The translations under genes were made by a program, and so were the position numbers. The notes beneath the pieces are model-generated. The model searched no databases. It was not told the DNA's origin and saw only the letters and a list, made by a program, of their open reading frames with translations. From IMG/VR virus record IMGVR_UViG_3300043446_002306, positions 1 through 39,968 of that record: a DNA stretch of 39,968 bases; one strand, written 5' to 3'. Below are positions 20,486 to 34,916 of the stretch, piece by piece. Each line of letters opens with the position of its first letter. Position 1 is the stretch's first letter. The DNA is from a virus.

Positions 20486-21415
20486 ATGGCAGGAATTCTT
20501 AATTTATTGCTTGGCGCTGGCGGTGGGAAGATCACTAACGCTACTGGAGGCAACGAAATTAAAACGGTTGGCTCTTATAAGTATCACATATTTACAACTT
20601 CAGGGACTTTTGAAATTGTATCTGGAGGTGGAAGTTTCGAAGTAATGTCTTGCGGCGGTGGTGCTGGGGGTGGTAATCAAGTTGCGGGTGGTGGCGGTGG
20701 CGGGGAACTTGATTTATTCACTACTGTTCCTGCATCTATTTCATCTTATACAGTAACTGTTGGTGGTAAAGGTGCCGGATCAACTTCTACGGCTAAAGGA
20801 GGAGGTGGGGGCACATCTTCATTTGCACTTGGTGGAACTACTTATTCTTCTTCGCTTGGTGGTGGTGGAGGTGGATCGGCATCCCCTAATGGTACAGGTG
20901 CTAATGGTGGTAGCGGTGGTGGTGGTCAGTGCGATCCAGGAAGTAATGGTGGTACAGCGTCAGGTTCCAATACAAATGCTGGCGGTGCTGGAAGTAATAA
21001 CGGCAGCATTTATGTATCTGGTGGTGGCGGGGGCGCTACAGCGGCAGGTGTTGCAGGGTCTACATCAGGCAGCGGGGCTGCTGGTAATGGCGGTGCTGGT
21101 TACACGCTGACAAACATTGACTCCAACTTTACAGCCGCAAACTTCACATCATTCACAGGAATGACCGTTATTTGTTCTGGTGGTGGTGGTGGGGCGTTAA
21201 AAACACCATCAGGAACAGCTCCGGCAAGAGGTGTTGGAGGCACTGGAGCTGGATCAGGTGGTGTCAATAATGGCACAACAAACACAAACACATCAAGCGC
21301 CGCTACATCTTTTGGAAGCGGTGGTGGTGGCGGAGGATGGTCTGGTGGCAGTGGAGGAAACGCCAATGGAGCAGACGGTTACGATGGTGTTGTGATTGTG
21401 AGGTACTTAGCATGA
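20486..21415 (+). CDS. Glycine-rich tail tip / adhesin-like protein, 309 aa
   Basis: More than a third of the residues appear to be Gly, in runs such as GGGAGGGNQVAGGGGGG, with an N-terminal beta segment (YKYHIFTTSGTFEIVSGGGS) and the ending DGYDGVVIVRYLA typical of phage Gly-rich domains. Such domains resemble T2/T6 gp38-type adhesins and probably form a polyglycine sandwich that contacts the receptor. ATG at 20486 is chosen; the frame is open back to 20456 but overlaps the previous gene. Confidence 0.75.
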   Translation: MAGILNLLLGAGGGKITNATGGNEIKTVGSYKYHIFTTSGTFEIVSGGGSFEVMSCGGGAGGGNQVAGGGGGGELDLFTTVPASISSYTVTVGGKGAGSTSTAKGGGGGTSSFALGGTTYSSSLGGGGGGSASPNGTGANGGSGGGGQCDPGSNGGTASGSNTNAGGAGSNNGSIYVSGGGGGATAAGVAGSTSGSGAAGNGGAGYTLTNIDSNFTAANFTSFTGMTVICSGGGGGALKTPSGTAPARGVGGTGAGSGGVNNGTTNTNTSSAATSFGSGGGGGGWSGGSGGNANGADGYDGVVIVRYLA

Positions 21416-33428: not shown

Positions 33429-33743
33429 CTACAATTCATTCTGCATCAGTAAGATAGCATCGTCAAGCCTGAACACTGCCAGGCTTTCCTTGCCATCACC
33501 TCGGCAAACAACCACAGGTATTTGCTTGCCATCTGCTGAAACAATGGCTTGCTCCATCCACTCATAAAGAGCAATCTTCCTACGACGTTTGCATTCGATC
33601 ATAAACGGCCCTAGATCGATGTCAGAGCCACCATCTCTTGCTTGCCCTAGTACACGGGTTACTTTCGTTCCCAATCGATCTGAGAGCGTTTTACAGACTT
33701 CTCGTTCGTAAGAAGCGCCTCGGTCTTTGCCTAGCTTGCTCAA
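33429..33743 (-). CDS. PD-(D/E)xK nuclease, probable resolvase, 104 aa
   Basis: The PD-(D/E)xK core is visible: Glu13 (YEREV), Asp41/Asp43 in GGSDIDLGP, and Glu50-x-Lys52 in FMIECKRRRK. Small proteins of this type in phages act as Holliday-junction or structure-specific endonucleases; a restriction-type nuclease partner of the nearby methyltransferase is a weaker possibility. It is the last gene of the minus-strand recombination operon and overlaps its upstream neighbour as ATGA. Confidence 0.8.
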   Translation of the reverse strand: MSKLGKDRGASYEREVCKTLSDRLGTKVTRVLGQARDGGSDIDLGPFMIECKRRRKIALYEWMEQAIVSADGKQIPVVVCRGDGKESLAVFRLDDAILLMQNEL

Positions 33744-33943
33744 TTGATTTGCTTCCTTAAGAGGTTGTAAGCGTGATGCCTGACTTCATCATTGACAGCA
33801 TAGCCAAGTAAGTCTGGGTCACACAATGATCGAAGGAACTCATCACGCGTTGAAAGCATGTGCTCTAGCTTTGCACAGTGCGATCTTAGTTCGTCATTTA
33901 GTTCTCTTAAGGTCTGGATACGTTCTGAGTCAGTCAAGACCAT
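33740..33943 (-). CDS. Hypothetical coiled-coil protein, 67 aa
   Basis: Not recognised. Heptad-like helix (ERIQTLRELNDELRSHCAKL) followed by a short helical end. AAGGAG, inside the end of the methyltransferase gene, precedes the ATG. ATGA overlap downstream. Confidence 0.7.
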   Translation of the reverse strand: MVLTDSERIQTLRELNDELRSHCAKLEHMLSTRDEFLRSLCDPDLLGYAVNDEVRHHAYNLLRKQIN

Positions 33944-34695
33944 GATTGCTCCTTCAATAAATTGAATGCTGTTGCCGCCACTGCTGGAACCTGTCCATTC
34001 CCAATGGCTCCAAGCGCGTCCATCCTCTGGGCCATATCATCAATTCCTCTGAAAGTTCTGGAAAGTACTTCATCGGAATACCGCTCTCGAAATAGACGTA
34101 AGTTATCTTCTCTGTCGGCGCTGACTTTCCAAGGGAAATTCGTTTTGACCTTGAATTCTTTATCCACTTTTCCTTGCCATGTTGAACCCCATCCGATTTT
34201 GTTGGAGTAGGCCAGAATCCAAACTCTGTCGCGTTTCGTGTTGATTCCAACGGAGTCACCTCCCAACACTCCCCATTTCGCATCAAACCCCATTTCGGCC
34301 AAGTCTCCAAGAACTGTTCCGAGTCCTCTAGAAACGAGCATTGGTGAGTTTTCCACGAGAACGTAATTTGGTCGTACCTCACGAATGACCCTCGCCATTT
34401 CTCGCCACATTCCAGATCGCTCACCTTCGATTCCGGCTCCCCTTCCTGCTGCGGAGATGTCTTGACAGGGAAAGCCGCCAGATATGACATCAACAATGCC
34501 TCGCCACGGTCTGCCGTCAAAGGTCTGAATGTCATCCCAAATCGGGAAAGGCGGGAGAATGCCGTCATTCTGTCTGGCGGCAAGTACGCAAGCTGCGTAG
34601 GGTTCCCACTCGACGGCGCAGACCGTGCGCCATCCGAGCAAATGTCCTCCGAGTATGCCTCCACCAGCGCCTGCGAAAAGAGCCAACTCATTCAA
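33934..34695 (-). CDS. DNA (cytosine-5) methyltransferase, 253 aa (TTG start)
   Basis: Transfers a methyl group from S-adenosylmethionine to cytosine C5, probably masking phage DNA from restriction. Motif I is LFAGAGGGILGG (6-17), motif IV GFPCQDIS with catalytic Cys77, motif VI ENS at 115-117 (more often ENV), motif VIII TKRDRVWILA, and GNGQVP at 232-237 in the last motif. The target-recognition region (about 165-220) is short. The start appears to be TTG at 34695, overlapping the upstream TGA with AGGA at good spacing; no ATG is available near the N-terminus. A second, out-of-frame ATG four bases later opens the nested frame at 33954-34691. Confidence 0.9.
   Translation of the reverse strand: MNELALFAGAGGGILGGHLLGWRTVCAVEWEPYAACVLAARQNDGILPPFPIWDDIQTFDGRPWRGIVDVISGGFPCQDISAAGRGAGIEGERSGMWREMARVIREVRPNYVLVENSPMLVSRGLGTVLGDLAEMGFDAKWGVLGGDSVGINTKRDRVWILAYSNKIGWGSTWQGKVDKEFKVKTNFPWKVSADREDNLRLFRERYSDEVLSRTFRGIDDMAQRMDALGAIGNGQVPAVAATAFNLLKEQSWS
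33954..34691 (-). CDS. Overlapping gene nested in the methyltransferase, 245 aa
   Basis: A complete frame, +1 relative to the methyltransferase on the same strand, spanning 738 of its 762 bases. It starts at an ATG four bases after the methyltransferase TTG, so both can use the same ribosome binding site. The protein is not low complexity: SRLSRFGMTFRPLTADRGEA near residues 46-64, then SWKTHQCSFLEDSEQFLETW, PKWGLMRNGECWE, FWPTPTKSDG and a C-terminal IWPRGWTRLEPLGMDRFQQW. I recall unannotated phage proteins with this same series (WPTPT, MRNG and a GW..L.PL..D.FQ.W ending), which argues for a conserved overprinted gene. Function unknown; no enzyme motif seen. Confidence 0.6.
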   Translation of the reverse strand: MSWLFSQALVEAYSEDICSDGARSAPSSGNPTQLAYLPPDRMTAFSRLSRFGMTFRPLTADRGEALLMSYLAAFPVKTSPQQEGEPESKVSDLECGEKWRGSFVRYDQITFSWKTHQCSFLEDSEQFLETWPKWGLMRNGECWEVTPLESTRNATEFGFWPTPTKSDGVQHGKEKWIKNSRSKRISLGKSAPTEKITYVYFESGIPMKYFPELSEELMIWPRGWTRLEPLGMDRFQQWRQQHSIY

Positions 34696-34916
34696 GCCAT
34701 GTCCTCTCTGACTGAATCGTCATAGGCTTCGATGTAACGACGCTGACCCTCTCCTTTTAACCCTTCATAGGTTGTAAATCGATGACCGCAAGCAACGCAT
34801 CTACGCCTGCGAGTCACCCATGTATTAGCAAGATTGTCTCTGTCGTAGTAGCGCCGTGAATCAAGTACGACGCTATCGTTCAATTGACCCTCTGTTGCAC
34901 ACTTAGGGCATATCAT
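34692..34916 (-). CDS. NrdR-like zinc-ribbon protein, 74 aa
   Basis: Cys3-x2-Cys6 and Cys40-x2-Cys43, with VLDSRR and RRRRCVACGHRFTTYE, match the N-terminal zinc ribbon of NrdR, the bacterial repressor of ribonucleotide reductase genes. The ATP-cone domain that follows in NrdR is absent: the protein is only 74 residues. It could bind NrdR-box DNA without nucleotide control, or have another DNA-binding role. Its stop overlaps the methyltransferase TTG start; it starts two bases after the stop of the preceding gene. Confidence 0.75.
   Translation of the reverse strand: MICPKCATEGQLNDSVVLDSRRYYDRDNLANTWVTRRRRCVACGHRFTTYEGLKGEGQRRYIEAYDDSVREDMA

Follow-up and report, generated by a model that had tools for sequence, protein, structure and literature searches.

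A phage gene nested in a C5-cytosine methyltransferase gene and the probable split enzyme encoded by the pair

Introduction

C5-cytosine DNA methyltransferases consist of a large catalytic domain, which carries motifs I-VIII and X, and a small domain, which carries the target-recognition region and motif IX (PMC3404938, PMC5944983). Enzymes of this class that have been split artificially reassemble if the cut falls between motif VIII and the recognition region (PMC5944983), and split enzymes also occur naturally: M.AquI (CYCGRG) has a small chain with motifs IX-X, and M.EcoHK31I (YGGCCR) combines a large chain with motifs I-VIII and X and a small chain with only motif IX (PMC3404938). Here, we focus on a locus of the virus record IMGVR_UViG_3300043446_002306 (IMG/VR), whose positions 1 to 39,968 make up the stretch that was analysed and is called the window below. 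At this locus, a C5-cytosine methyltransferase gene, alpha, holds a second gene, beta, in the +1 reading frame of the same strand.

Such a two-in-one arrangement is known from one bacterial example, M.EcoHK31I. The small chain of that enzyme (176 amino acids) is reportedly read in another frame inside the large one (309 amino acids), and going by the title of a 1995 paper of Lee, Kam and Shaw both chains are said to be needed in vitro. The alpha and beta chains of the window very probably are the large and the small subunit of one split C5-cytosine DNA methyltransferase, a reading drawn from sequence and profile comparisons. Among the papers searched, none describes a phage methyltransferase with a nested subunit; the nearest case is an out-of-frame HNH insertion in the methylase gp65 of phage ShiLan, which concerns a different gene and a homing element (PMC11855218).

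A Conserved Gene Within the Alpha Gene

The nested frame represents a genuine second gene that has long been conserved, more so than chance would allow. Alpha starts with TTG and the nested frame of 245 codons with an ATG 4 nt downstream, as the initial annotation of the window, made from the letters alone, had described; the two share 738 of the 762 nt of alpha. The same annotation rightly pointed out that the nested frame is more than twice as long as any other same-strand shadow frame in the window, the next one listed having 116 codons (20760-21110). Its estimate of the chance of such a frame, (61/64)^245 or about 8e-6, was too small. When codons were shuffled synonymously within the window gene, which keeps the amino-acid sequence and the codon usage fixed, 5.1 stops were expected in the +1 frame and 0.04% of 20,000 shuffles had none (P 4e-4). 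The claim that the frame exceeds chance stands all the same, because stops are depleted across the whole family; the figure for the single gene is not decisive.

For this family-wide comparison, 80 viral loci were retrieved with the alpha protein only and reduced to 67 non-redundant genes, so that the sampling is unbiased for the nested frame. Frequent stops in homologous genes, which the initial annotation had named as counter-evidence, do not occur: the 67 genes contain 0 inner +1 stops, where synonymous codon shuffling predicts about 325. The depletion holds for alpha codons 26-225 (0 stops versus about 274 expected) and, within these, for codons 26-100, which span the catalytic PCQ and the motifs that precede it (0 versus 76). 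A control set of 16 monomeric C5 methyltransferases shows no depletion, with 460 +1 stops versus 498 expected, and the +2 frame of the alpha relatives is not depleted either (979 observed versus about 769 expected, regional values summed).

The pattern of base changes agrees with this. Third-position sites of alpha are more conserved than codon usage predicts, and at matched protein identity third positions carry a smaller share of the changes than in single-frame controls, while the identity of 4-fold sites lies above that of non-overlapping controls in most identity bins; the pairs in the matched comparison are not independent, and it therefore serves as supporting evidence only. Over the motif IX stretch (alpha codons 201-225), conservation reaches 0.61 in the beta frame versus 0.44 in the alpha frame. 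It is lowest in both frames over codons 176-200 (alpha 0.16, beta 0.19).

Beta also has a start codon of its own, which is ATG in 65 of the 67 genes and GTG in one. The ATG arises from alpha codon 2, for which AAT is used in all 64 cases of asparagine, versus 44% AAT elsewhere (P ~3e-23), and in 57 of the 67 genes a stop codon directly precedes it in the beta frame. The conserved ATG, the biased AAT and the preceding stop therefore point to an independent start of beta and not to read-through from upstream. In the window, an AGAGGA sits 6 nt upstream of the alpha TTG and 10 nt upstream of the beta ATG, and judging from this spacing a single ribosome-binding site could serve both starts.

Two alternatives can be weighed at this point. 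The nested frame might be untranslated, open through the amino-acid and codon make-up of alpha and conserved by hitchhiking on the methyltransferase. The strong conservation of alpha does indeed fix two bases in every three, one open +1 frame as long as this is no extreme rarity, and AlphaFold performs poorly on the nested chain alone. We nevertheless give this explanation next to no probability: it is refuted in the main by the stop depletion at fixed amino acids and codon usage, with its flat control, by the bias at the start codon and by homologues that carry the corresponding segment as the C-terminal end of one continuous chain (see below); the motif IX stretch is also better conserved in the nested frame than in that of alpha. 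Alternatively, the +1 frame could be reached mainly via programmed frameshifting from alpha, yielding a fused chain with motifs I-VIII and then IX, a product which the single-chain relatives make plausible as an enzyme. This, too, is very improbable, since the conserved ATG of beta mostly follows an in-frame stop and since a downstream shift would not need the constrained N-terminal part of beta over the first motifs of alpha.

Motifs and Homology of the Two Chains

Alpha is a C5-cytosine methyltransferase catalytic chain. It matches PF00145 (E=3e-30, positions 4-169 of 324), phrog_363 (E=8e-60), phrog_116 at 212-390 and the enzyme M.HhaI (E=1e-13 over 4-169), and its AlphaFold model, although of moderate confidence (pLDDT 58, pTM 0.58) and low in confidence at residues 168-191 and 211-235, finds a structural match in M.HhaI (E 2e-11). 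Motifs I-VIII, including the catalytic PCQ, and motif X are present, with PCQ and GNGQ conserved among 75 alpha chains. The stretch from motif VIII to motif X holds nothing recognisable as motif IX (LTPxECxRLQGFP-like). Alpha does not appear to unite motif IX and a recognition domain with the catalytic motifs, and its matches stop at about residue 169, before motif X. Motif VI of alpha (residues 115-117) reads ENS in place of the usual ENV, a form conserved across the alpha family.

What alpha lacks has a counterpart in beta. Profile comparisons show that the C-terminal half of beta and the C-terminal portion of phage C5 methyltransferases, with the target-recognition region and motif IX, are homologous. 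Beta matches phrog_1008 (E=2e-14) as well as phrog_35493 and phrog_26627. In hhalign, the family of the window beta aligns with the beta chains of split enzymes over residues 115-235 (99.1%, E=1.3e-18) and with single-chain enzymes over residues 207-230 on motif IX (96.7%, E=3.6e-10), corresponding to residues 333-357 of the ShiLan type. The single-chain phage profile, in turn, aligns end to end with classic monomeric enzymes, including motifs IX-X (E=4e-34). Beta residues 160-206 correspond to the PTPxAxDG region located after motif VIII in single-chain enzymes; the bases that encode these residues also encode the variable stretch of alpha from motif VIII to motif X. The consensus of the motif IX stretch in the beta family is LNPxWVEWLMGWPLGWTDLKPL, and the C-terminal end as a whole reads ...GLWPTP...GGxLNPxWVEWLMGWPLGWTDLKPLEMDK.

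The family consensus contains the WPTPT, MRNG and GW..L.PL..D.FQ.W segments that the initial annotation had put forward as family signatures; that it associated them with phage proteins is explained by records which annotate beta as 'hypothetical protein'. That annotation did not recognise a split of the M.EcoHK31I type. Its guess at a partner of the methyltransferase is supported by the motif IX and target-recognition part which beta carries and alpha is missing, whereas its other guess, an unrelated anti-host factor, finds no support given the homology of the C-terminal half of beta.

With beta or its profile as query, Pfam, NCBIfam and PDB sequences gave no match of note; the strongest one among PDB sequences, 3nng (E 0.04-0.13), was put down to chance, and so were the others.

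Several of these results weigh against the reading as a split enzyme. Apart from the missing Pfam match, the beta-family profile does not match classic monomeric enzymes directly, so that the link passes through phage intermediates, and the match of the single-chain profile in the window relatives spans only 24 residues. The AlphaFold model of beta alone (pLDDT 49, pTM 0.19) is too poor to show a recognition-domain fold. Moreover, in M.EcoHK31I the predicted recognition domain was placed in the large chain (PMC3404938).

Split, Fused and Nested Relatives

The connection between nested and single-chain enzymes is made by phages in which the two parts are arranged in other ways. Two actinophages, Mycobacterium phage Artemis2UCLA (L170) and Gordonia phage Float294 (L174), have a frame 0 that ends just past motif VIII. 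Their +1 frame encodes PTPxAxDG segments, a WMMG stretch resembling motif IX and a GNGV motif X. Over 166 residues, the Float294 beta chain and the C-terminal portion of gp70 of Mycobacterium phage ShiLan, a single-chain enzyme, are 49% identical (E=4e-41); in gp70, the PTPxAxDG and WMMG segments come after motif VIII within one frame. The cluster phrog_1008 unites the window beta with the split beta chains of actinophages. On phrog_116, these split chains match positions 409-490, immediately behind the stretch matched by alpha (212-390).

Near matches to the beta C-terminus, 82 loci with both parts were found and sorted by frame. The beta part lies in the frame of alpha itself in 46 of them, nearly all single chains, and in the +1 frame in 31, while five show other layouts. 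Most of the 31 +1 loci have an overlap of roughly 200-300 nt and an alpha end that is about 25 nt or less from motif VIII.

Two further observations concern these layouts. At five loci (L315, L320, L323, L327 and L331), alpha and beta parts form two separate open reading frames (ORFs) without overlap, about 270-380 nt apart and with a +1 or +2 offset. ShiLan gp70 (L369 1796-2962) has a long open +1 stretch over the region of motifs VI-VIII, with beta-like SSWK, SETWPPSGM and LLPTP, and from its sequence looks as if a split pair had been rejoined by a frame change.

Distribution and Genomic Context

As far as sequence searches tell, the nested pair occurs widely, in phages as well as in prophages and on plasmids. 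With beta as query, tblastn returned 43 phage records, 297 stretches in viral contigs and 66 bacterial loci. The phages include those of Mycobacterium, Stenotrophomonas, Vibrio, Pseudomonas, Salmonella, Acinetobacter and Klebsiella as well as cyanophages, and further matches lie on plasmids of Acinetobacter and Leptospira. Every one of the 66 bacterial loci keeps the +1 arrangement, and so do the 169 loci inspected in viral contigs and phages. Most of the records inspected annotate one frame only, either alpha as a methyltransferase or beta as 'hypothetical protein'; in PP083311.1 (23175-23903; L002 2001-2729) and MG592600.1 (39374-40072; L006 2001-2699), only beta is annotated, as a hypothetical protein, and the methyltransferase is missed.

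In four bacterial loci (L224, L234, L238 and L256), a single inner stop interrupts alpha while the beta frame is open; most of these stops could be one C-to-T change away from a sense codon, and the loci are probably decaying prophages. A fifth locus, L288, combines an alpha stop with a broken beta.

This distribution bears on a third alternative, namely that beta is made but works on its own, perhaps with host restriction or some other host process as its target, so that its likeness to motif IX would be a relic. The first ~110 residues of beta speak for it, as they have no counterpart in single-chain enzymes or split beta chains, yet are clearly constrained (the stop depletion over alpha codons 26-100). 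In the 66 bacterial and the 169 viral and phage loci, however, beta is never found away from alpha, from which it is offset by +1; furthermore, it has a recognisable motif IX where alpha has none, and M.EcoHK31I provides a precedent for the joint enzyme. We consider separate action improbable. It is possible, although rather unlikely, that this N-terminal part, overprinted on the catalytic motifs of alpha, is a new module with a function beyond the supply of motif IX (e.g., binding of a host protein or tuning of specificity), and that it is retained via the shared ribosome site, which would fix the alpha:beta ratio.

The neighbours of the pair in the window are a small PDDEXK_15 protein, an NrdR-like zinc ribbon, a helix-turn-helix (HTH) protein and Rad52-like and YqaJ-like recombination proteins. 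No restriction endonuclease was recognised beside the pair among the scanned neighbours, where the PDDEXK_15 protein has no assigned function. The gene of this protein, a 'phage putative endonuclease' (33429-33743, minus strand), lies two genes downstream; its product may serve as a nuclease partner or else in recombination. The zinc-ribbon ORF (34692-34916, minus strand) ends in a TGA that overlaps the alpha TTG and directly precedes the beta ATG, and translation of alpha and beta may therefore be coupled to this ORF. The coordinates of the pair are collected in Table 1.

Table 1. Features of the alpha/beta locus, in positions of the window.
Feature	Position	Strand	Remarks
alpha, C5-cytosine methyltransferase catalytic chain	33934..34695	minus	TTG start, 253 aa
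beta, nested +1-frame gene	33954..34691	minus	ATG start, 245 aa; proposed motif IX / target-recognition subunit
alpha motif IV, catalytic PCQ	34462..34470	minus	alpha residues 76-78; P76 and C77 invariant
alpha motif X (ALGAIGNGQVPAVAATAFNL)	33955..34014	minus	overlaps beta C-terminus; G232, N233 and Q235 invariant in 75 alpha chains
beta motif IX (MKYFPELSEELMIWPRGWTRLEPL)	34002..34073	minus	beta residues 207-230
beta variable segment from WPTPT, proposed recognition region	34074..34214	minus	beta residues 160-206
beta N-terminus (MSWLFSQALVEAY)			
shared initiation region	34689..34707	minus	AGAGGA 34702-34707; alpha TTG 34693-34695; beta ATG 34689-34691; TGA stop 34692-34694

Proposed Function and Implications

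For the split enzyme that we favour, we infer that both proteins are made and form a complex in which beta sets the specificity. One mRNA segment would yield both chains from one ribosome-binding site, with start codons 4 nt apart. Alpha would supply S-adenosylmethionine binding and catalysis (motifs I-VIII and X), and beta the recognition region and motif IX, so that the large domain formed by alpha and the small-domain signatures of beta would assemble into one enzyme. This enzyme would methylate a specific site in the phage DNA and thereby, most likely, protect it from host restriction. It is probably an orphan: because no recognised restriction enzyme adjoins the pair, an orphan anti-restriction methyltransferase is the likeliest role.

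If so, many proteins of phages, prophages and plasmids whose annotation reads hypothetical, or 'DNA cytosine methyltransferase' with no partner, are probably half an enzyme each, and expression of the annotated half alone should fail. A curiosity of one bacterial enzyme would become a family with fused, partly overlapping and almost fully nested intermediates, which would allow one to study how two overlapping genes of related function arise and become fixed. In our judgement, made without a survey, the pair is among the longer near-complete same-strand overlaps with statistical support in double-stranded DNA phages.

Comparison With Known Systems

In motif layout, the window pair agrees with M.EcoHK31I: alpha carries motifs I-VIII and X, and beta carries motif IX. 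As is reported for M.EcoHK31I, beta is encoded in another frame within the gene of the large chain; the window beta differs in being longer, in covering almost all of alpha and in the distance of only 4 nt between the starts. Furthermore, the pair is located on a phage and has no linked restriction enzyme that was recognised. The actinophage pairs Artemis2UCLA and Float294 are closer to M.AquI, with motifs IX and X in the second chain, whereas the window pair has motif X in alpha and a nearly complete overlap. The split actinophage chains also differ from the window beta in its constrained N-terminal part, which is read over the first motifs of alpha.

The single chains of ShiLan gp70 and PHROG 116 have the same C-terminal segment (PTPxAxDG ... 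WMMGWPAGW) after motif VIII, but consist of one frame and one chain with no nested start. The cluster matched by both the window beta and the actinophage split betas, phrog_1008, is labelled 'DNA methyltransferase' (329 positions), with no subunit role stated. Compared with these systems, the near-complete overlap of beta and alpha, the shared ribosome site for both starts, as proposed above, and the wide occurrence in phages, prophages and plasmids are new.
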